Assembly (NCBI GenBank): GCA_017941635.1
Contig: JAGAVZ010000255.1
Coordinates: 1 to 64,000, forward strand
Source: Cellulosilyticum sp.
Lineage (GTDB): Bacteria; Bacillota; Clostridia; Lachnospirales; Cellulosilyticaceae
Length of the DNA: 64,000 bases
Reading direction: 5' to 3'
In this document: in pieces, positions 576 through 57,570 of the stretch
How positions within the stretch are numbered: position 1 is the first letter of the stretch
Layout of the letters: each line of letters begins with the position of its first letter
The notes under the pieces: generated by a model
Told to the model about the DNA's origin: nothing
The model's input: only the letters and a program-made list of their open reading frames with translations
Databases searched by the model: none
Translations under genes and position numbers: made by a program

Positions 576-1466
576 ATGTCTAAAGATCCTAAATCTTGTC
601 TAGATTATACTCAGTTTCCTACTTCTTTTCCCCCTCAACATCAATCCTATCAACCTGGAAATGAGTTCGAAATGAATCCTTTACCTATTTTTGATGACCC
701 ATGCTACTTGGGCTGTAATCGACTTAAAGGCAAAGTTGCTTTAATTACAGGTGGAGATAGTGGAATTGGGCGTGCTGTTGCAGTTGCTTTTGCCAAGGAA
801 GGTGCTAAACTTGCCATCTCTTATCTTTGTGAGGAAGAAGATGCAAATCAAACAAAGGCAATCATTGAAAGTTATGGTGGAGAATGTTTACTACTTCCTG
901 GAGATATTAGAAGCAAAGACTTTTGTCAGAGCTTAGCCAAATCCACTTATGACCATTATGGCGCTCTAGATGTTCTAATTAATAATGCAGCCGTTCAATT
1001 TCCTCAAGATGATTTCCAAAACATCTCAGAAGAACAATTAAAAACAACTTTTGAGATTAATGTTTTTCCAATCTTTTATTTAACCCAAGCGGCACTTTGC
1101 TATATGAAATCTGGCAGTAGCATTATTAATACCACTTCTATTACTGCCTATGAAGGCCACGATCAGCTTATTGATTACTCATCAACTAAAGGTGCTATTG
1201 TTTCCTTTACACGTTCCTTATCTCAATCACTTGTGAGCAAAGGTATTCGTGTTAATGCTGTTGCTCCTGGTCCAATCTGGACTCCATTAATTGTTTCTTC
1301 TTTCTCCAAAGATGAGGTTGCGAAATTTGGTCAAAGTTCACCTATGAAACGTGCTGGTCAACCTGTGGAACTTGCTCCAAGTTATGTTTATCTCGCATCT
1401 AATGATGCCTCTTATGTGACAGGTCAGGTTCTTCATGTAAATGGTGGTACTATTGTAGATAGCTAA
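576..1466 (+). CDS. short-chain dehydrogenase/reductase (general stress protein 39-like)
   Basis: The product is a 296-residue SDR-family oxidoreductase. An N-terminal extension of about 45 residues precedes the Rossmann domain, as in the Bacillus YdaD/YhdF group. The dinucleotide-binding motif TGGDSGIG, the NNAA motif (INNAAVQF) and the catalytic Ser with YSSTK are all present, so it should be an active NAD(P)-dependent reductase; the substrate cannot be read from sequence. I chose ATG 576 because GGAGGT lies 5 bases upstream; an in-frame ATG 14 codons earlier has no ribosome site. It stands alone between terminators. Confidence 0.9.
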   Translation: MSKDPKSCLDYTQFPTSFPPQHQSYQPGNEFEMNPLPIFDDPCYLGCNRLKGKVALITGGDSGIGRAVAVAFAKEGAKLAISYLCEEEDANQTKAIIESYGGECLLLPGDIRSKDFCQSLAKSTYDHYGALDVLINNAAVQFPQDDFQNISEEQLKTTFEINVFPIFYLTQAALCYMKSGSSIINTTSITAYEGHDQLIDYSSTKGAIVSFTRSLSQSLVSKGIRVNAVAPGPIWTPLIVSSFSKDEVAKFGQSSPMKRAGQPVELAPSYVYLASNDASYVTGQVLHVNGGTIVDS

Positions 1467-1526
1467 GATGTTCGACTCTCATCTATTTGCAAACGCACCA
1501 AAGCATTCTGAGAATGATGCTTTCTA

Positions 1527-1574
1527 TTAAATAGGGCTGCATGCTAATTACTTTAGCAAAGCAGCCCTATTTAA
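1527..1574. terminator. long perfect hairpin after the SDR gene
   Basis: Two 14-bp arms at 1527-1540 and 1561-1574 are perfect inverted repeats, and the loop holds a second pair of arms (TGCTAA/TTAGCA), so nearly the whole segment can fold. There is only a weak T tract on either side. It probably ends SDR transcription or protects the 3' end. Confidence 0.6.
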
Positions 1575-1603
1575 TAATGATCATTTAAAACTCTATATCA
1601 TAT

Positions 1604-1653
1604 CAAAAAGGACTTGGTAATAATTAAATATATCCATTCATACCAAATCCTTT
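1604..1653 (-). terminator. Rho-independent terminator of the CLC gene
   Basis: On the minus strand AAAGGATTTGGTA pairs with TACCAAGTCCTTT with one mismatch and runs into a T tract. It starts 9 bases after the CLC stop codon. Confidence 0.8.
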
Positions 1654-1661
1654 ATCATAAT

Positions 1662-2876
1662 TCATTCAAAATGATATCTTTTTTGAGCCGTATAAATACT
1701 CTTATTTCCATTAAAGGTATGTGCAATTGCACATACAATAGCAAAATATAAAACATACTCTGTTCCAAATACCTCTACACCAATTAGTATTGGCGATAAG
1801 AAAGTATTGGTGGCACTTGCAAAAACCGCAACATAACCTAGAGCTGCTGAAAATACAATAGGTAGTCCTAAAAGCTTAGCCAATACCACCCCTAAGCTTG
1901 TACCAATGGCAAATAAAGGGGTAACTTCCCCGCCTTGATACCCTACGCCTAATGTTAAAACTGTCAGTATAAGCTTTAAGAGCCAATCATACCAGTAAAT
2001 AGTTCGGCCCTCAAAGCTTTCATTCACTAAATTAGTTCCCAAACCACAGTACCTTCCTTTATGAAGTAAAAAGAAAAGTATAGCTAAAATACATCCTACA
2101 ATAAAGATTCGTTTTACAGGATTGTCTATTTTTTTGTTCAAATACTTCTTTGTAGCCACTAAAAAATGAGTAAAACAACCGCCTACAATACCAAAAATGA
2201 TACCACTCACAATCAATTTAAGAATTAAAGAAAAAGAAATCACTAGAGTGGGGTCTAGTGGTACCACAAATTTCTCTAATCCTAGTAAATGAGAGGTGTA
2301 GCTCGCAAAGCAAGCTGCTACCAGAGCAGGTAAGAGTGCCTCATACTGTAGTGCGCCTGCCACTAATACCTCTAATGCAAAAAAAGTAGCGGCAATAGGC
2401 GTTTGAAATAATCCACCAAATCCGGCTGCCATACCTACAATCAAAAAAATTCTATAGCCGTCTTTTATACGAATAGGCCTACTTAGTATATTGGCTACTG
2501 TCCCACCTAATTGAACGGAAACACCTTCTCTCCCTGCACTTCCTCCAAACAAATGTGTCATCCATGTGGTCAGAATAACTAGAGGAATTAATCGCTTTTG
2601 AATCACTGTGTTTTTGCCAAATCCTGTTTGAAAAATCAGCGTCATCCCCTGTGAAGATTGTTTACCAAAATGCGTATAAAGTAGCATAATAATGACCCCT
2701 GCTACAGGGAAAAAAGGCAAAACAAAGAGTAAATGTTCTTCTCTAAAATTGGATACCAATAGGAGTCCTTTGCCAAAAATTGTATCAATACCACCCACAC
2801 AGATACCAATAAATATACTCACAACTATTGCAATAAATAATTCTTTATACCGCTCTAACATTTCATTCAAACTCAT
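1662..2876 (-). CDS. CLC-family anion transporter, probable fluoride (CLC-F) type
   Basis: This 404-residue polytopic membrane protein has the CLC signature GGSAGREG near residue 115, including the gating glutamate, and GYQGGEVTPLF near residue 310. The context THLFGGSAGREGVSVQ resembles the CLC-F branch, which exports fluoride in exchange for protons. The usual GSGIP chloride-selectivity motif is absent; the corresponding stretch is SSQGMTLI with Met78, as in some CLC-F proteins. I see no fluoride riboswitch upstream. ATG 2876 has AAAGGA upstream and is preferred over a GTG two codons earlier at 2879. The assignment to CLC is firm, the fluoride specificity is inferred. Confidence 0.85.
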   Translation of the reverse strand: MSLNEMLERYKELFIAIVVSIFIGICVGGIDTIFGKGLLLVSNFREEHLLFVLPFFPVAGVIIMLLYTHFGKQSSQGMTLIFQTGFGKNTVIQKRLIPLVILTTWMTHLFGGSAGREGVSVQLGGTVANILSRPIRIKDGYRIFLIVGMAAGFGGLFQTPIAATFFALEVLVAGALQYEALLPALVAACFASYTSHLLGLEKFVVPLDPTLVISFSLILKLIVSGIIFGIVGGCFTHFLVATKKYLNKKIDNPVKRIFIVGCILAILFFLLHKGRYCGLGTNLVNESFEGRTIYWYDWLLKLILTVLTLGVGYQGGEVTPLFAIGTSLGVVLAKLLGLPIVFSAALGYVAVFASATNTFLSPILIGVEVFGTEYVLYFAIVCAIAHTFNGNKSIYTAQKRYHFE

Positions 2877-2964
2877 CACTTCCTTTAAGATTATTATAGC
2901 TAGTTCGCTAAAAACTTATTTATGCTTACTAACCAATTCTTTATTTTAAAGAAGAATGATCAAT

Positions 2965-3003
2965 AAAAGGATTGTGCATGAACTTATTTCAAACACAATC
3001 CTC
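2965..3003 (-). terminator. terminator of the FAD oxidase gene
   Basis: On the minus strand AGGATTGTG and CACAATCCT form a 9-bp stem followed by TTTTATT, about 70 bases after the oxidase stop codon. Confidence 0.75.
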
Positions 3004-3074
3004 AGCTTTATTACCTATTTATATAATAACTCGCTTATATACTCTAATTATATCACTTGCTTATCATAATTTAC

Positions 3075-4448
3075 TTATAAGCTTTGTTCAAATGTAAACA
3101 CCCCATGCATATCATACTGCTTTCTAATCTGTTCTAACTTTGCTTGATGCTCACTATAGTAAGCCTTTTTATAATCTCTGATTTCTCCTGCTGGGAAATT
3201 CACAAAAGAACCTGCTGTCATCTCTTCAATCTTAGGAAAACGTTCTTTAAACCATTCTCTATTTTCCTTACGATATTGGTTATCTTCCCATACAGTTTGT
3301 ATGCCTAAAATATATAAACTATCTCTATAATAGAAAGATGAATCTTCTCTAGAACCTCTACTCATTTGGCCACCCATTCCATAGCAAGATAGTGCCATAA
3401 ATACAGAGCCTTCTGCTCTTTCTTCAATACAATCTAATGCACTATTCATTTGTTCTTCTGTAAGTGCCTTCGTTACAAAACGCCCCGATGACTTGTAATG
3501 TTCGTAGTCTGGATGCGCATCCTGTAACCAACGATTCATATCAATTACAGACATTGTTTTGACTGAAATATACAATTCTCGTCCCAACTGAACAAATGGT
3601 GCAATGATTTGGTGTGCTTCCTTTGCCTCTCCATAGTAAGCTCCAAGTAACAAAATACCTCTTCCTTTTTCTTTAGAATAGCTAAGGCTTAACTTAAAGT
3701 TCACTTCATCGCAAGCACTTTGGATGATTTCTTGATAGCATTTAAACATCTCAAGCTGGTCATTTCTTTGTACTTCATGATATTCAATTCGAATCAGCGT
3801 TGCTTTCTCTCTCTTAGCTGGCAGGCCAAAGCGAATACTTGTAACTACCCCAAATTGTCCACCACCACTTCCTTTAAGTGCCCAAAAAAGTTCTGGATTT
3901 TCATTACGATTTGCAATGACAACTTCACCATTTCCATCAATCATTCTAATTTCTTGTACTGCATCGCACCCTATGCCGAGTAGTCGGCCTGAGTATCCCC
4001 AACCACCACCAAGGGTATAACCTACTGCACCTACTGTTGGACAAGTTCCTCCTGGAAAAGGATAACCCTTTTGTGCAAGGAACTCATAAACCTCTCTATT
4101 TCTTGCACCTGCTTCAATAGTAAGTGTGCCTGCCTCTTCATCCATCATCATGCCATTCATTTGGCTAACATCAATAACAAATACATCATTCCCTGAAGAA
4201 TACCCATCATAATGATGTCCACCTGAACGAATACGAATGGCAATCTCATGCTTTCTTGCCCAAAGAATCGCATTTTTAATATCCTCTTCATTTTTACAAT
4301 AACAAATAATCAGCGGATACTTGTCAATCCCTCGATTCCACATCGTACGTGCATCTTCATATAAATCATCTTCTCTTGTTACAATTCTTCCTGTTAATCC
4401 TGTCAAATCTAATGCTTTGTTCATCTCTTTACTCATTGCTGTCTTCAC
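3075..4448 (-). CDS. FAD-linked oxidase, berberine-bridge (BBE) type
   Basis: The product is about 457 residues: an N-terminal FAD-binding_4 (PCMH) domain and a C-terminal BBE domain. His78 in SGGHHYDG and Cys136 in GGTCPTVG match the two residues that attach FAD covalently at both sides in this family, so a bicovalent flavin is predicted. Such enzymes oxidise sugars, oligosaccharides or other alcohols with oxygen; the substrate is unknown here. The start is uncertain: GTG 4448, ATG 4436 and ATG 4424 all lack a strong ribosome site. An oxygen-using oxidase is somewhat unexpected in an anaerobe-like genome. The gene is monocistronic with its own terminator. Confidence 0.87.
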   Translation of the reverse strand: MKTAMSKEMNKALDLTGLTGRIVTREDDLYEDARTMWNRGIDKYPLIICYCKNEEDIKNAILWARKHEIAIRIRSGGHHYDGYSSGNDVFVIDVSQMNGMMMDEEAGTLTIEAGARNREVYEFLAQKGYPFPGGTCPTVGAVGYTLGGGWGYSGRLLGIGCDAVQEIRMIDGNGEVVIANRNENPELFWALKGSGGGQFGVVTSIRFGLPAKREKATLIRIEYHEVQRNDQLEMFKCYQEIIQSACDEVNFKLSLSYSKEKGRGILLLGAYYGEAKEAHQIIAPFVQLGRELYISVKTMSVIDMNRWLQDAHPDYEHYKSSGRFVTKALTEEQMNSALDCIEERAEGSVFMALSCYGMGGQMSRGSREDSSFYYRDSLYILGIQTVWEDNQYRKENREWFKERFPKIEEMTAGSFVNFPAGEIRDYKKAYYSEHQAKLEQIRKQYDMHGVFTFEQSL

Positions 4449-4765
4449 TTTCTTGGTAGTCTTGTCTTATCTTATTTATTAGTCAGCTAAATCTTTCATT
4501 TACTTCATTATATCCTAAACGCTTTCACCTTATTTTTCAATATTAACTCTCTTACTCTTCATCATATTATTTTTAGTCTAAATCTATAACTCCCTTCTTG
4601 TACACCCCAAAGAGGTTTTACTCCCAACTTTTCTCATTGTCAATAAAAAAGCTCTCAATCATACTACTTAAATAGTATGGTTGAGAGCTTTTCATATACT
4701 CAATCTAAATTAAAATCTAAGTTTAACCTAATAAAGTTCTATCTGTTTCCCTTAAAAGGTTATTA
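4449..4765. other. intergenic region between the oxidase and GH3 genes
   Basis: This 317-base AT-rich stretch contains the GH3 terminator at 4646-4694 and presumably the oxidase promoter near 4450-4550. I see no coding sequence in it. Confidence 0.6.
4646..4694 (-). terminator. terminator of the GH3 gene
   Basis: The arms at 4651-4665 and 4674-4688 form a 15-bp stem with one G-T pair. On the minus strand the stem is followed by a run of six T residues. Confidence 0.88.
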
Positions 4766-6490
4766 TTATAATCTTGTATCCCAAGCACCACAGAATGCAT
4801 CGACTGGGCTCACACCTTTGAACTCAGATTTACCAGTAATTTTTTCAACGACTTGGCGAATGGCATCTTTTGTTGTGTTATAAGTGTTGATATAAGTTGG
4901 TACCATTGGTACGTCAATTAAGTGGAATGGGTTCGCAACAGAGATACATACTGTTGGAAGCTCTGTTACATACCATGGGATATCTGGACCCATTGGCATA
5001 CTCCAGTGTAAGCGACGTTCATTACTTTGAGAGAAGCCTGCTACGTTACATACCAACATAACAGCATCATATTTTGCTACATATTCAGTGATTGGTGTAG
5101 CCGCTAATAACTGTTTACCATTCATTTCTGTATTTGGGTCAAATGTAAACACTTCAAAGCCTGCTTTTTCTAATTCTGCTTTAAATAACTCTTCAATAGA
5201 ATCTCCTGCACCCATTTGTTTTGAACGGAAATCTGTCGTGTCAATACTATAAAGCATGATACGTTTGTGTGTTTCTGGTGTTAATGGTAATTGTGCTTTT
5301 GTATTTTTAACTAATGTGATAGATTCATCAATGATTTCATTCGCTTTTTTAATGTGTTCTTCACATCCAATTATTGATAAGTTTTCTTCTGATGGCATAA
5401 GTGTACCATTAGTAGCTTTTTCGTGAAGCTTAAGCATTGCTTTCATAGCAAGTACACGTTTTACAGCTTCGTCAAAACGTTCCTGTGATACTAATCCTGT
5501 TTCTAAACCTTTTTTGAAGAAGTTGATATCTTCTTCTTTATCTCTGTAGTAAAGAATCATATCACAACCAGCCTCAATCACACCTGGTACGAATTCACTT
5601 CTTTTTGCTTTAGATGTTAAACCAACCATGTGAGTTGCATCTGTAATAATAAGACCATTGAAACCTAATTGACCACGAAGTAAGTCTTTTAATAATTCAG
5701 GCGCCATTGTTGCAGGCATAATATCTTGATCTTTGATACCTGGACGTAATTTACGGCTGTATTCTGGAAGTTGGATGTGACCAATCATAATAGATTCCAT
5801 ACCTTGGTCAATTAAACCTTTGTAGATTTTACCAAATGAAGCATCCCATTCTTCTACTGTTTGATCGTTTACTGTTGTAACGATGTGTTGGTCTCTTTCA
5901 TCCAGACCATCACCTGGGAAGTGTTTCATACAACATGCCACACCTGCATCCTTTGCACCACGGTGATATTCTTTAGCCATTTCAAGTACGACTTCTGGGT
6001 CACTAGAGAAACATCTATCAGAAACAACGCAGTTTCTCCAGTTATAGTTTACATCTACGATAGGTGCAAATGTCCAGTTACATCCTACTGCTGCTGCTTC
6101 TTTACATCCGTGATAGCCTAAATAATATGCATTTTCTTTATTTTGCGTTGCACCAATAGCAACTGGGTTCCCTACTTGTGTTCCACCTTTTACAGCACCA
6201 TTTCCACCACCTTCAACGTTGGCAGCGATTAATGCTGGCACTTTACTTGTGTTTTGGATTGTAGCATTTTGTTTATATAAATCTTCTTTAGATAAGTTAT
6301 TATAACGGAATCCACCTTGGTGGTATTTTGTAATTTTCTCTTTAATCGTTTCTTCAGTATCGCCCCATAACATATCTACAAAGATTTGTCCGATTTTTTC
6401 ATCTAAGCTAAGGCTGTTAAAAGTTTCTTCTACCCATTTAATATCACTATCTGAAAGGTTAAATGGTTGTGCTTTAAAATCAATTGACAT
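4766..6490 (-). CDS. glycoside hydrolase family 3, beta-N-acetylglucosaminidase-like
   Basis: This 574-residue protein has a GH3 TIM-barrel (about residues 20-350) and a second alpha/beta domain (about 380-570). The motif KHFPGDG at 189-195 and Asp200-Gln-His202 match the loop that carries the His-Asp acid/base dyad in the NagZ-type branch of GH3, and Asp284 in IITDATHM is the expected nucleophile. This favours release of terminal N-acetylhexosamine over glucose. No signal peptide is visible, so it acts in the cytoplasm, for example on imported muropeptide or chitin fragments. AGGAGG lies 8 bases before ATG. The divergently transcribed AraC regulator next door is a plausible controller. Confidence 0.88.
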   Translation of the reverse strand: MSIDFKAQPFNLSDSDIKWVEETFNSLSLDEKIGQIFVDMLWGDTEETIKEKITKYHQGGFRYNNLSKEDLYKQNATIQNTSKVPALIAANVEGGGNGAVKGGTQVGNPVAIGATQNKENAYYLGYHGCKEAAAVGCNWTFAPIVDVNYNWRNCVVSDRCFSSDPEVVLEMAKEYHRGAKDAGVACCMKHFPGDGLDERDQHIVTTVNDQTVEEWDASFGKIYKGLIDQGMESIMIGHIQLPEYSRKLRPGIKDQDIMPATMAPELLKDLLRGQLGFNGLIITDATHMVGLTSKAKRSEFVPGVIEAGCDMILYYRDKEEDINFFKKGLETGLVSQERFDEAVKRVLAMKAMLKLHEKATNGTLMPSEENLSIIGCEEHIKKANEIIDESITLVKNTKAQLPLTPETHKRIMLYSIDTTDFRSKQMGAGDSIEELFKAELEKAGFEVFTFDPNTEMNGKQLLAATPITEYVAKYDAVMLVCNVAGFSQSNERRLHWSMPMGPDIPWYVTELPTVCISVANPFHLIDVPMVPTYINTYNTTKDAIRQVVEKITGKSEFKGVSPVDAFCGAWDTRL

Positions 6491-50094: not shown

Positions 50095-51576
50095 TTATAC
50101 TAAAAATTGATTCACCATATCTTTCATTTCACTTACCTTGCAAACTGTATTGTGCCAGATTTTTCTTGTTGCAATATGATCCATCGCTTTTGGCATATCC
50201 CCTTTGATCAGTTCATGCATTTGGTCAAGTAATTCAAAATCACTGATACCATCATATTTTTCAGCATCTACTGCTGTCATAACGCTATGTGTAAATTTGT
50301 ATGGACTAGCTGTTGACACAACAACTGTTGGTGTTTGGTCATTTGTTTCTTTTACATATTTGTCATATACAGCATAAGCAACAGCTGTATGTGTATCCAT
50401 TAAATAACCCTCTTCATCAAACACTTTTTTGATGTAAGCCTTAGTTGTTTGATCATCTGCATAGCCACCATAGAAGTCTTTGATATTTTGGCGCATTGTT
50501 TCTGTGATTGTGTATTTACCATCTTTTTTGAGGCTATTCATTAATTCATTCACTGTTTGGGTGCTTTCACCACTGATATGATAAAGGAGTCTTTCTAAGT
50601 TACTAGAAATTAAAATATCCATAGAAGGTGATGCTGTTAAGAAGAATTCTCTATTGCGATCATATGTTCCTGATTCAAAGAAATCAAATAATACTTTGTT
50701 ACTATTTGATGCACAGATGAGTTTACCAATTGGAAGTCCCATTTGTTTTGCATAGTAGCTTGCTAAGATATTTCCAAAGTTACCTGTTGGAACAACCACA
50801 TTCATTGTCTCTCCAGCAGCAATTTTACCATCACGTACCATTTTGCCATAAGCAGCGAAGTAGTATGCAACTTGTGGAATTAATCTTCCTATATTAATAG
50901 AGTTTGCTGATGAGAATTTATAATTTTTCTCAGCAATTTCTGCTGCAAATTCTTTGTTTCCAAAGATTTCTTTTACAGTTGTTTGACAGTCATCAAAGTT
51001 TCCTTTAACCCCTACAACGAAAGTATTTGCACCCTCTGTTGTAACCATTTGTTGTTTTTGAACATCACTTACACCATCTTGTGGGAAGAATACAATAATT
51101 TTTGTACCATCTACATTTGCAAAGCCTTCAAGAGCTGCTTTACCTGTATCCCCTGATGTTGCTGTTAAGATAACGATATCTTTATCTTCTCCATTATAAC
51201 GTTTACTTGTAAGCATTAAATAAGGAAGAATTGATAATGCCATATCCTTAAATGCAATTGTTGGTCCATGGAATAATTCTAAAAAGTGACCTGTTTTTGT
51301 ATGTACTAAAGGTGCAATTTCTTTTGTATCAAATTTTTCATCATACGCATGTTCAATGCAGTATTTTAAATCTTCATCTTTAATCTCATCAAAGAATAAA
51401 CGCATTACGCGATAAGCCACTTCTTGATATGACCAATTTGCAAGCTCTTCTAAAGCAAAGTCCATTTTTGGCATTTGTGTAGGGACAAATAAACCTCCCT
51501 CATTCGAAATACCTTGTAAAATTGCTTTTGTAGCAGTGATATGATCTAAATTTTGACGTGTACTTGTGTATAACAT
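50095..51576 (-). CDS. thrC: threonine synthase
   Basis: The 493-residue PLP enzyme makes threonine from O-phosphohomoserine. The PLP lysine is Lys110 in HGPTIAFKDMALS, and the phosphate-binding Gly-rich loop is VVPTGNFGNIL. The length and N-terminal segment (YTSTRQNLDHITATKAILQGISNEGGLFVP) fit the class of threonine synthase found in E. coli and Clostridia. A GGGAG site precedes ATG. It is transcribed alone from a good promoter (51652-51625). Confidence 0.96.
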   Translation of the reverse strand: MLYTSTRQNLDHITATKAILQGISNEGGLFVPTQMPKMDFALEELANWSYQEVAYRVMRLFFDEIKDEDLKYCIEHAYDEKFDTKEIAPLVHTKTGHFLELFHGPTIAFKDMALSILPYLMLTSKRYNGEDKDIVILTATSGDTGKAALEGFANVDGTKIIVFFPQDGVSDVQKQQMVTTEGANTFVVGVKGNFDDCQTTVKEIFGNKEFAAEIAEKNYKFSSANSINIGRLIPQVAYYFAAYGKMVRDGKIAAGETMNVVVPTGNFGNILASYYAKQMGLPIGKLICASNSNKVLFDFFESGTYDRNREFFLTASPSMDILISSNLERLLYHISGESTQTVNELMNSLKKDGKYTITETMRQNIKDFYGGYADDQTTKAYIKKVFDEEGYLMDTHTAVAYAVYDKYVKETNDQTPTVVVSTASPYKFTHSVMTAVDAEKYDGISDFELLDQMHELIKGDMPKAMDHIATRKIWHNTVCKVSEMKDMVNQFLV

Positions 51577-51728: not shown

Positions 51729-51756
51729 ACAATACTTCCAAAAGTTACATACCTTA
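51729..51756 (+). promoter_or_regulatory. sigma-K-like promoter of the coat-like genes
   Basis: AC at 51729-51730, 17 bases, then CATACCTTA at 51748-51756 match the sigma-K pattern AC-N16/17-CATANNNTA. No sigma-A pair is seen. It predicts late mother-cell expression of the two Cys-rich genes downstream. Confidence 0.6.
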
Positions 51757-51760
51757 TACT

Positions 51761-51793
51761 AGAGAATGCAATGCGGGTCGAACCCGTTTCTCT
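51761..51793 (+). promoter_or_regulatory. 5'-end hairpin of the coat gene mRNA
   Basis: AGAGAA pairs with TTCTCT and, inside it, CGGGT with ACCCG around a CGA loop. The hairpin begins about 5 bases after the sigma-K -10 element, so it would lie at the very 5' end of the transcript and may stabilise it. Confidence 0.6.
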
Positions 51794-51834
51794 ATAAATT
51801 ACTTGCAATTTAAATGTTTCTAGGAGGTATTATT

Positions 51835-52029
51835 ATGGCATTTCAACACGACTTAGCTTGTCTTGTAAATCAAAAAGTTATCATTCACACTGATCGTTGT
51901 AGTTACTGTGTAATTATTTCACAAGTTTGCCCTTGCTATATTAGAGCAATCGAACTCGGTTCAGGTAATGTTAGATACTTCAATTTTGATCGTATCGACT
52001 ATGTAGAAACATGCTTACCTCAATGCTAA
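51835..52029 (+). CDS. small Cys-containing coat-like protein, Sm-like domain
   Basis: The 64-residue protein is one compact beta-rich domain: LVNQKVIIHTDRCSYCVIISQVCPCYIRAIELGSGNVRYFNFDRIDYVE. The strand pattern and length recall an Sm-like fold, with five added cysteines, but this is an impression. It is a paralogue of the C-terminal domain of the next protein. AGGAGG lies 6 bases before ATG 51835. A sigma-K-like promoter and Cys content suggest a spore coat or crust component. Confidence 0.75.
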   Translation: MAFQHDLACLVNQKVIIHTDRCSYCVIISQVCPCYIRAIELGSGNVRYFNFDRIDYVETCLPQC

Positions 52030-52067
52030 CCATGACTTATTTGTTTAAGATATAAGGAGGAATAAAT

Positions 52068-52616
52068 ATGAGTTGTTGTGGAAGAAAAAACAGTAAATTT
52101 TATGATCGACCAAATTTAGGTCAAAATTGCTGTGGTTATCAATCAGTAAATAGTTGTTGTTCAAACAATCATTCAAATAATGGCTGCTGTGACAGCACAA
52201 ATTCTAATACTTCATCAAGCAATACCTGCCGTAACTATATGACTACTGCTAAATCTACTAATAATTGCTGCGGTTCTAACTCTTATAATAACTGCTGCGG
52301 TTCTAACTCTTATAATAACTGCTGTGGTTCTAACTCTTATAATAATAGCTGCTATAATAATGTAGGTTATGATGGACTTTCTTGCCCATTCCATAACAAT
52401 AATGACTGCGAGTGTGAAAACAGCTTAAGAGATGCACTTTGCACATTAACAAACCAACGTGTTATCATTCACATTGATGGATGCAAAATGTGTGTTGTCA
52501 TTGTAAGTGTTGGTGACTGTTTCGTTAAAGCAATTAATCCTTGTACTCAAAAGATTGTTTACTTCAATATCAATCGTATTGACAACGTTGAGGACGTATT
52601 ACCACGTTGCTACTAA
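52068..52616 (+). CDS. Cys-rich repeat protein with Sm-like C-terminal domain, probable spore coat
   Basis: The 182-residue protein has an N-terminal low-complexity region (about 1-110) rich in Cys, Asn and Ser, with the nine-residue unit CCGSNSYNN repeated three times from a 27-base DNA repeat (about 52262-52345), and a C-terminal domain (about 118-182) homologous to the 64-residue protein before it: LTNQRVIIHIDGCKMCVVIVSVGDCFVKAINP. Many cysteines suggest disulfide cross-linking, as in coat proteins such as CotZ. AAGGAGG lies 7 bases before ATG. It follows after 38 bases, so it shares the sigma-K-like promoter. Confidence 0.8.
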   Translation: MSCCGRKNSKFYDRPNLGQNCCGYQSVNSCCSNNHSNNGCCDSTNSNTSSSNTCRNYMTTAKSTNNCCGSNSYNNCCGSNSYNNCCGSNSYNNSCYNNVGYDGLSCPFHNNNDCECENSLRDALCTLTNQRVIIHIDGCKMCVVIVSVGDCFVKAINPCTQKIVYFNINRIDNVEDVLPRCY

Positions 52617-52636
52617 AAAAAATAGCTTTAAAAAAA

Positions 52637-52674
52637 TAAGCTCCAATAGCGACCTAGTCGCTATTGGAGCTTAT
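52637..52674. terminator. terminator between coat genes and sigH
   Basis: ATAAGCTCCAATAGCGA pairs perfectly with TCGCTATTGGAGCTTAT around a four- to five-base loop; it can serve both convergent units. Confidence 0.85.
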
Positions 52675-52748: not shown

Positions 52749-53405
52749 TTAAGCTTGTAAACGTGTAACACCTTCAAGCTTTTTCTTAATACGTTGTAAG
52801 GCATTATCAATTGATTTTGGAGACTTACCAAGTATCTCAGCAATCTCTCTGTAGTTTTTTCCTTCCATATAAATGTGAAGTACTTGTACTTCCAATGCAC
52901 TTAATACTCTGTCAATATACTCATGAATATCATCCACATTCTCTTTACTAATCACTTCATCCTCTGGTGTAAGTGAAATATTATTTTTAAGTACATCCAT
53001 TAAAGTAACTCCTTCATCCTCTTCATCTGATGACTTATTAACAGGTATACTTAATGAAATACTACGATTAAGTGGAATATGCTTTTGTCTTGAAACAGCT
53101 TTAAAAGCTGTGCTAATTTGCCTTGTTACACATAAGGTCGCAAAGGATTTAAAACTTGCTTCCTTCTCAGGATTATAGTCACAAATAGCTTTGAAAAGTC
53201 CAATCATTCCTTCTTGGATGAGATCATCTTTATCTGTACCTACTAAAAAATTTACCCTAATACGATTTCTTACCAATTTTTTATAACGCTTAATGAGCTC
53301 ATCAATTGCTCCTGTAACGCCATCTTTATAAAGAATAATTAATGCTTCATCTGATAGATTTTCAAAAGTCTCTCTACTCTTTTTTTCCTCATTAGTTATC
53401 GGCAT
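52749..53405 (-). CDS. sigH: sporulation sigma factor sigma-H
   Basis: The 218-residue sigma-70-family protein has region 2 (DDLIQEGMIGLFKAICDYNPEKEASFKSFATLCVTRQISTA) and region 4 (LSALEVQVLHIYMEGKNYREIAEILGKSPKSIDNALQRIKKKL). It matches SigH, the early sporulation and stationary-phase sigma factor, in length and sequence. Its place after cysE-cysS-mrnC-rlmB is the conserved Firmicute order, though here a CheX-like gene lies in between and no yacP gene is found. Confidence 0.94.
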   Translation of the reverse strand: MPITNEEKKSRETFENLSDEALIILYKDGVTGAIDELIKRYKKLVRNRIRVNFLVGTDKDDLIQEGMIGLFKAICDYNPEKEASFKSFATLCVTRQISTAFKAVSRQKHIPLNRSISLSIPVNKSSDEEDEGVTLMDVLKNNISLTPEDEVISKENVDDIHEYIDRVLSALEVQVLHIYMEGKNYREIAEILGKSPKSIDNALQRIKKKLEGVTRLQA

Positions 53406-55910: not shown

Positions 55911-56087
55911 TTTGTTTTTCCTACCTTTTATGGATATCTCTATAAGATAGAGTCCACCTATTTTCTGCTTAATCTAAATCCATGCTATAGGTTATTGATT
56001 CCTATATCATGGATTTAAACTTATTCTTCTATATAAATCATTTTCCTACATTATAATACAGTTTACAGGATTTATACCCATATCTAT

Positions 56088-56145
56088 TTTTGTATTATAC
56101 ATATTTGTATTATACATATTTGTATTATACATATTTGTATTATAC
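56088..56145. repeat. 15-base tandem repeat at the end of cysS
   Basis: The unit TGTATTATACATATT begins at 56091, 56106, 56121 and, in part, 56136, giving about 3.7 copies. It overlaps the cysS stop codon. Each unit includes the palindrome GTATTATAC, and the minus strand of each contains TATAAT. Confidence 0.85.
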
Positions 56146-57570
56146 TCGCTTGTAACGTACACCTTCTCTTGTATCTTCAATCAGAACACCTTGCTCTTTA
56201 AGATACTCACGGATACGGTCTGCTTCAGCAAAGTCTTTGTTTTTCTTAGCTTGTTTACGTTGTTCAATGAAGTCTTGAATTTCTTCATCACTTAATCCAT
56301 CTACAGTTTCGCCTTCATTTTTATAAATTAAACCTAAAATATCTACTAACTTATCAAATAAGTCCATAACCGCTTTGATAAATGGTTTTGAAGCCCCTTC
56401 TTTAGTATAAGTGTTTGCAAACTTAACAAGCTCAAAGATGACGCTAATTGCATCTGCTGTATTGAAATCATCTGACATATAGTCATTGAAACGTTTTTCG
56501 AATACTGGGAGTTCTTCCATTAATTTTTGTTCTTCTTCTGTTAATGTGTCAATTTGACTGTGGTCATATGCAAATTTAAGTGCCATTCCACCATTTTTGA
56601 TACGGTCCAAGCTATTTGCTGCCGCCTGCATTAAATCTGCACTGAAGTTAAGTGGACTTCTGTAGTGTGCATTTAGCATGAAGAAACGAACCACATCATA
56701 TCCATACATTTCACCTACATCACGAAGTGTTTTGAAGTTTCCAAGTGATTTTGACATTTTTTTGTTATCAATGTTTAAGAAAGCATTGTGCATCCAGTAG
56801 TGTGCAAACTCAGCACCATTTGCACCTTCACTTTGTGCAATTTCATTTTCATGGTGTGGAAATACTAGGTCTTCTCCACCTGCATGAATATCGATTGTAT
56901 CTCCAAGGTAACGTTTTGCCATAGCAGAACATTCGATATGCCATCCTGGTCTACCTTCGCTCCATGGACTTTCCCAATAAGGTTCACCATCTTTTTTAGG
57001 TTTCCAAAGTACGAAGTCCATTGGATGTTTTTTACCAGCTGCTAAGTCGTGTCTTAATGTTTCACGGTCATTACGTCCTGATTCTAATTCTTCTAATACT
57101 TTCTTAGAAAGTTTACCATAGCCTTCAAATGCCGCTGTATCAAAGTAAACTGTACCTTCTGCATCATATGCAAAACCTTTGTTAATTAATGTTTGAATCA
57201 TTTCAATGATTTGTGGCATTTCTTCTGTTACACGTGGGTGGCAAGTTGCACGGTGTACATTAAGATTTGCTACGTCTTTTAAAGTTTCTGCAATGTATTG
57301 TTCTACGACTTCATCTGTTGTGCGGTTCTCTTCATTTGCTTTTTTGATGATTTTATCATCTACGTCTGTGAAGTTTTGAACATAGTTTACTTCATAACCT
57401 TGGCTTTCAAAGTAACGACGTACTGTATCAAATACGATATATGGTCTAGCATTTCCAATGTGAATTAAGTTGTATACTGTTGGTCCACACACATACATGC
57501 GCACTTTATTGGGTTCGATTGGTTTAAATTCTTCTTTTTGTTTTGTAAGGGTATTATAGATTCTAATCAT
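56140..57570 (-). CDS. cysS: cysteine--tRNA ligase
   Basis: The 476-residue class I synthetase has the HIGH-type motif CGPTVYNLIHIGNARP, zinc ligands in CGPT, ECS and HHENE, and the KMSKS motif KKMSKSLGN. It charges tRNA-Cys. GGAGA precedes ATG. It follows cysE after 20 bases and shares the cysteine T-box leader. The last codons are part of a 15-base tandem repeat. Confidence 0.97.
   Translation of the reverse strand: MIRIYNTLTKQKEEFKPIEPNKVRMYVCGPTVYNLIHIGNARPYIVFDTVRRYFESQGYEVNYVQNFTDVDDKIIKKANEENRTTDEVVEQYIAETLKDVANLNVHRATCHPRVTEEMPQIIEMIQTLINKGFAYDAEGTVYFDTAAFEGYGKLSKKVLEELESGRNDRETLRHDLAAGKKHPMDFVLWKPKKDGEPYWESPWSEGRPGWHIECSAMAKRYLGDTIDIHAGGEDLVFPHHENEIAQSEGANGAEFAHYWMHNAFLNIDNKKMSKSLGNFKTLRDVGEMYGYDVVRFFMLNAHYRSPLNFSADLMQAAANSLDRIKNGGMALKFAYDHSQIDTLTEEEQKLMEELPVFEKRFNDYMSDDFNTADAISVIFELVKFANTYTKEGASKPFIKAVMDLFDKLVDILGLIYKNEGETVDGLSDEEIQDFIEQRKQAKKNKDFAEADRIREYLKEQGVLIEDTREGVRYKRV

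Follow-up and report, generated by a model that had tools for sequence, protein, structure and literature searches.

The window, the whole 64,000-nucleotide stretch that we analysed of DNA from Cellulosilyticum sp., a gut or rumen bacterium, carries on its forward strand a unit of two genes between thrC (divergent, 50095-51576) and a gene for a sigH-like sigma factor (convergent, 52749-53405). The features of this unit are collected in Table 1. We found both open reading frames that an earlier note, made from the letters alone, had placed here, encoding proteins of 64 and 182 residues. The short protein aligns without gaps to the last 60 or so residues of the long one (44% identity over 63 aa, E = 3e-16), which confirms the paralogy that the note had claimed. 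The 27-base repeat that it had seen in the long gene is likewise present, as three copies in frame. An inverted repeat beyond the 3′ end of the pair is probably a terminator shared with the sigH-like gene. Elsewhere in the window, a short open reading frame between mrnC-like and cysS genes (56046-56180, −) carries a repeated YNTNM motif, a small tandem repeat of its own.

Table 1. Features of the two-gene unit and its leader (window positions)
Feature	Position	Strand	Basis
Predicted sigma-K promoter	51729..51756	+	Exact match; spacing kept in 11/11 representative leaders
Promoter elements: −35 AC; 17-base spacer; −10 CATACCTTA	−35, 51729-51730; −10, 51748-51756	+	
Predicted transcription start	about 51761-51764	+	
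Leader hairpin at predicted mRNA 5′ end	51760..51794	+	Fold, covariation, hairpin model match 51759-51795
Hairpin stems: outer UAGAGAA/UUCUCUA; inner GCGGGU/ACCCGU; 6-nt bulge on 5′ side			
Shine-Dalgarno AGGAGG of 64-aa gene, outside hairpin	51822..51827	+	Sequence and leader alignment
Short protein, 64 aa, single Sm-like barrel, 7 Cys	51835..52029	+	ORF and AlphaFold2 model
Long protein, 182 aa: disordered Cys/Asn/Ser-rich N-terminal region, then C-terminal barrel	52068..52616	+	
Three in-frame 27-bp repeats, NNCCGSNSY ×3	about 52260..52340	+	Start-to-start spacing 27, 27; translation
C-terminal barrel domain of long protein, paralogue of 64-aa protein	52422..52613	+	
18-bp inverted repeat between pair and convergent sigH-like gene, probable shared terminator	52636..52674	.	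Pattern scan

Cysteines make up 25 of the 182 residues of the long protein (13.7%) and 7 of the 64 residues of the short one (10.9%). The long proteins of genera g1, g2 and g9 begin with MSCC; Cys22, Cys25 and Cys34 are common to both paralogues there, and Cys32 is found in 14 of the 15 short forms of the Cys-rich genera. Genus g8 keeps the gene pair despite being cysteine-poor, with one or two cysteines per short protein, one to three in the two long proteins counted, and Pro/Thr-rich linkers in the long proteins. Cysteine richness is thus lineage-specific. Because these relatives retain the pair with so few cysteines, disulfide linkage of the two proteins, as predicted by the earlier note, would be part of the story at most: barrel, gene pair and promoter form the constant core, and the cysteines appear to be one lineage's way of cross-linking. 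In a tree of the domains, short forms group together and long forms together (2 label changes, compared with 10.7 in shuffles); with the deep forks of the tree unsettled, the split is compatible with one old duplication.

Predicted promoter and leader of the two-gene unit

The consensus sigma-K element reported by the earlier note was found as an exact match to AC-N17-CATAnnnTA (ACAATACTTCCAAAAGTTACATACCTTA). There are three matches to this pattern in the AT-rich 64-kb window, against a mean of 3.47 in shuffles, so that the match alone proves nothing; its significance comes from the conservation of the spacing among the leaders of relatives. We compared 11 representative leaders from genera g1, g2, g3, g6, g7, g8 (three) and g9 and from family f72 (two), that is, from seven genera and a second family. 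In all 11, exactly 17 bases separate AC from CATAnnnT, whereas every other spacing from 8 to 27 is seen in none to two of them. The full pattern is exact in ten leaders and one base off in the other (L024), and the chance of an exact pattern is 0.4–1.1% per 200-nt leader. The 17-base spacing holds even in genera, and in the second family, where the upstream DNA is otherwise hard to align. It rules out the chance promoter that the number of matches in the window had suggested. Promoters controlled by sigma-K in C. difficile carry AC where those controlled by sigma-E have ATA (PMC3789822). No ATA is common to the leaders at 16–18 bases before the −10, which makes a sigma-E promoter unlikely. Control of the operon by SigK, as the earlier note had claimed, is strongly supported at the level of sequence. 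Consensus sites for SpoIIID and GerE in common among the aligned leaders were not found, and the promoter is absent from the stretch read in G793, a genome of our phylum sample. A genome-wide search for GTAACA-N16-CATAnnnTA returned one other site only, apparently within phage-like coding sequence.

The sigK gene is present in the source genome as two halves, on contigs C71 (L093, G000:C71:6529-6831, −) and C120 (L094, G000:C120:1887-2252, +). They cover model positions 14-114 and 106-226; being only parts of a gene, both score under the curated cut-off. Ahead of the 3′ half lies an ORF for a large serine recombinase, and behind the 5′ half an HTH gene, as expected of a sigK gene interrupted by a skin-type element; such an element interrupts sigK in B. 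subtilis and C. difficile. The spoIVA gene is also spread over two contigs of this genome (G000:C6:9438-10088 and G000:C201:6904-7647, model positions 1-217 and 245-492). It occurs in 22 of the 24 genomes of the family and, being found almost everywhere, was uninformative as a marker of sporulation loss. C. lentocellum, of the genus Cellulosilyticum, has been described as endospore-forming (PMC3416734). Sigma factor genes of sporulation type occur as two tandem pairs (sigE–sigG-like; G000:C45:6150-7670 and G000:C139:10720-12233) in the one assembly; they may reflect strain mixture, and the bin is listed with 5.9% contamination.

The promoter is followed by what the earlier note called a stable two-part hairpin. 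Its two parts were borne out, the outer stem having 7 bp and the inner one 6 bp, with a bulge of 6 nt confined to the 5′ side, but its folding energy is unremarkable, with 10 of 200 shuffles folding as well (z = −1.58). Conservation of the pairing was seen across 11 relatives, in which 99.2% of cells are paired. Two-sided changes occur at three of the four inner pairs, a level reached by none of 500 shuffles, and slid controls fail. The outer stem is invariant within this covariation set; in the distant leader L025 it reads AGGGAA/TTCCCT instead of AGAGAA/TTCTCT. Two leaders of genus g8 (L021 and L022) have the exact promoter and lack the hairpin. The GGAGG of the Shine-Dalgarno sequence of the short gene is invariant across the leader alignment. 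Judged by its distance from the −10, the foot of the stem is probably where the mRNA starts. A 5′-terminal stem is a known means of slowing mRNA decay, and the hairpin may stabilise this transcript.

Other identities for the leader were considered and rejected. Searching with a hairpin model gave a single confident copy in each genome, that at the operon of the pair, which speaks against a genome-wide repeat; 150 of the 1,400–5,000 first-look candidates per genome were scored, and all other hits had E-values above 0.003. A terminator or attenuator is contradicted by the lack of a U run after the hairpin, here and in relatives. A pattern scan did list the hairpin as terminator-like in the window, which we discount because TTTCTCTATAA, taken as its tail, forms the second arm of the outer stem. 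A search of Rfam gave no match to a known RNA family. What the leader provides is a covarying hairpin, at the predicted 5′ end of the mRNA, associated with a single operon of predicted late-sporulation expression.

Fold, family and distribution of the domain

The small beta-barrel, Sm-like domain proposed in the earlier note was supported by structure prediction. AlphaFold2 modelled the 64-residue protein, from a 31-sequence alignment, as a helix (residues 2-8) and five strands with a pLDDT of 89.3. In the model of the long protein, the C-terminal domain has the same helix and five strands, also predicted confidently, and residues 1-116 fall below pLDDT 50 and are predicted to be unstructured. 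Foldseek against the PDB listed Hfq, Sm/Lsm proteins, MnxE and GerQ among its matches, Methanocaldococcus Hfq and Sm/Lsm being best. Among the best 50 matches listed, GerQ (8zra) had the top TM-score on the query (0.81, E = 0.057), and MnxE scored 0.80. E-values were 0.015 and up and none passes 0.001, so that these matches indicate likeness of fold only. On the predicted model, GerQ and MnxE are the closest spore-related folds among the matches listed.

The earlier note did not recognise the domain, and we found no match to a Pfam, NCBIfam or PHROG family. Comparison with the GerQ profile (PF09671) gave no sequence relationship (probability 0.4%) and no Pfam match; searches of Pfam and NCBIfam gave no match to an Hfq or Sm family and no similarity to CsxA, ExsY or CotY/CotZ. 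A sequence search of the PDB linked the domain family to no entry, MnxE and MnxF included. Weak NCBIfam and Pfam matches to polyferredoxin VhuB, DUF4957 and BasB were partial, fell far below the cut-off and were set aside. The earlier note had held that a structure search assigning the domain to a known non-spore family would speak against a role in the spore; sequence gave no such assignment, and the fold matches comprise both spore and non-spore Sm-like proteins. We conclude that this is a new family of a known kind of protein.

The nearest named relatives of the short protein are in Cellulosilyticum genomes (98 and 97% identity), followed by Sporanaerobium and then a Candidatus Epulonipiscium MAG. 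A domain profile search found the pair in 20 of the 24 genomes of the family and in 2 of a further 390 genomes drawn from the class, both of family f72, a distribution that centres on one family. Within that family, a short gene for a single barrel precedes a long one, whose product has a variable linker ahead of its C-terminal barrel. The phylum sample yielded one further strong domain-profile match, G793, with the same short-plus-long order and a charged, almost Cys-free linker; the domain of its long protein matched weakly (E = 0.00035, five-sequence search). In family f72, a convergent neighbour (L089, 939-1436, +; L090, 133-681, +) encodes a protein of 160–180 aa whose C-terminus resembles the small barrel, with a weak profile match for L089 only. 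Four genomes of the Cellulosilyticum family have spoIVA and no detectable pair, so sporulation does not require the pair; judged by gene content, it appears to be an accessory rather than a core sporulation component.

Candidate roles in the spore

We think it reasonably probable that the operon encodes SigK-controlled, ring-forming proteins of the coat or exosporium, the long one anchoring or cross-linking them through its disordered Cys-rich tail. RNA polymerase with sigma-K would transcribe the two genes in the mother cell late in sporulation, and the conserved hairpin, probably beginning the mRNA, would shield its 5′ end through a long period of late-stage expression. The two small-barrel, Sm-fold products would likely form rings through strand-to-strand contacts, like GerQ and MnxE/F, and the fast-evolving tail of the long paralogue would anchor these rings in the coat or exosporium or cross-link them there, through disulfides in the Cys-rich genera with an MSCC start. 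This reading is favoured by the presence of spoIVA and sigK in the genome, by the AC of the −35 and the spacing exact in 11 of 11 leaders, by the short-plus-long layout and the old split kept across genera, and by the match of fold and layout to GerQ, itself missing from the genomes searched, with the fold of MnxE matching too. Against it weigh the RNA-binding Hfq and Sm proteins at the top of the same Foldseek list, the profile comparison that gave no link to GerQ, the four genomes with spoIVA and no pair, and the loss of cysteines in genus g8. The coat or crust location predicted in the earlier note is plausible.

GerQ of the Bacillus spore coat assembles through strand pairing into nine-subunit rings or bowls that stack into filaments (PMC11405398). 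The pair resembles it in the predicted helix and five-strand barrel and, in the long protein, in a low-complexity N-terminus followed by a C-terminal barrel; self-assembly, a property of GerQ, may be expected of the pair. GerQ differs in not being Cys-rich and in being a single gene, whereas here an operon encodes two paralogues; no sequence relationship is detectable, and GerQ is absent from all 59 genomes searched (the source genome and relatives). MnxE and MnxF of Bacillus sp. PL-12 spores form a ring-like E3F3 hexamer that binds copper (PMC5622069). They too are small barrels, two subunits of similar size from one operon, and a ring is predicted for the pair; unlike them, it has no MnxG, the multicopper oxidase to which they are attached, beside it. 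Spores are known to use Cys-rich proteins that self-assemble into layers linked by disulfides (PMC7333573). CsxA, ExsY, CotY and CdeC share with the pair a very high cysteine content (25 Cys in CsxA and 25 in the long protein; PMC7333573) and a late mother-cell role, likely for the pair. They differ in that no Pfam match links them to it, and in the pair many of the cysteines belong to a disordered tail attached to a small barrel, and some relatives do without them.

The same comparisons bear on three other roles, each of which we consider improbable. GerQ recruits CwlJ, and the pair could be a sigma-K-controlled germination or enzyme-recruiting factor instead of part of a structural layer; its fold and layout are like those of GerQ, which is itself missing, yet it has no sequence link to GerQ and consists of two paralogues, not one, with Cys-rich tails that suggest cross-linking. 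About equally improbable is a metal-binding spore protein of the MnxE/F kind, its CxxC and CxC cysteines binding metal or serving an oxidase partner rather than forming disulfides. The copper-binding hexamer of MnxE/F, one of the closest folds listed, and the cysteines held in common by both paralogues would fit this, but the pair adjoins thrC and the sigH-like gene and no oxidase gene, and genus g8 is without most of these cysteines. Marginally less probable still is an Hfq/Sm-like RNA chaperone acting late in the mother cell, its ring binding RNA and perhaps its own leader hairpin: the best Foldseek matches and the conserved bulged hairpin point that way, but Pfam gives no Hfq or Sm family, the pair has predicted sporulation-only expression, the linkers of the long paralogue, Cys-rich and fast-changing, look structural, the hairpin occurs, among confident matches, only with the operon of the pair, and genus g8 retains the proteins without it.

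A wider and more tentative proposal, which we hold less likely than not, is that the paralogues co-assemble into a mixed Sm-fold ring as the building block of a spore layer. Ring-forming barrels (GerQ, MnxE/F and the present family) would then be a recurrent, unrecognised coat module in both Bacilli and Clostridia, its surface chemistry set by disordered tails that can be exchanged (Cys-rich, Pro/Thr-rich or charged). The fold likenesses suggest repeated use of one small ring-forming barrel in spore shells. Clostridial spore coats have few proteins in common with Bacillus, and the coat of the group of Cellulosilyticum and Epulopiscium is largely unknown: set against B. subtilis, C. lentocellum showed no more than four coat protein genes (PMC3416734). 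The pair is a family-wide, unnamed candidate for this coat, strongly predicted to be SigK-controlled.
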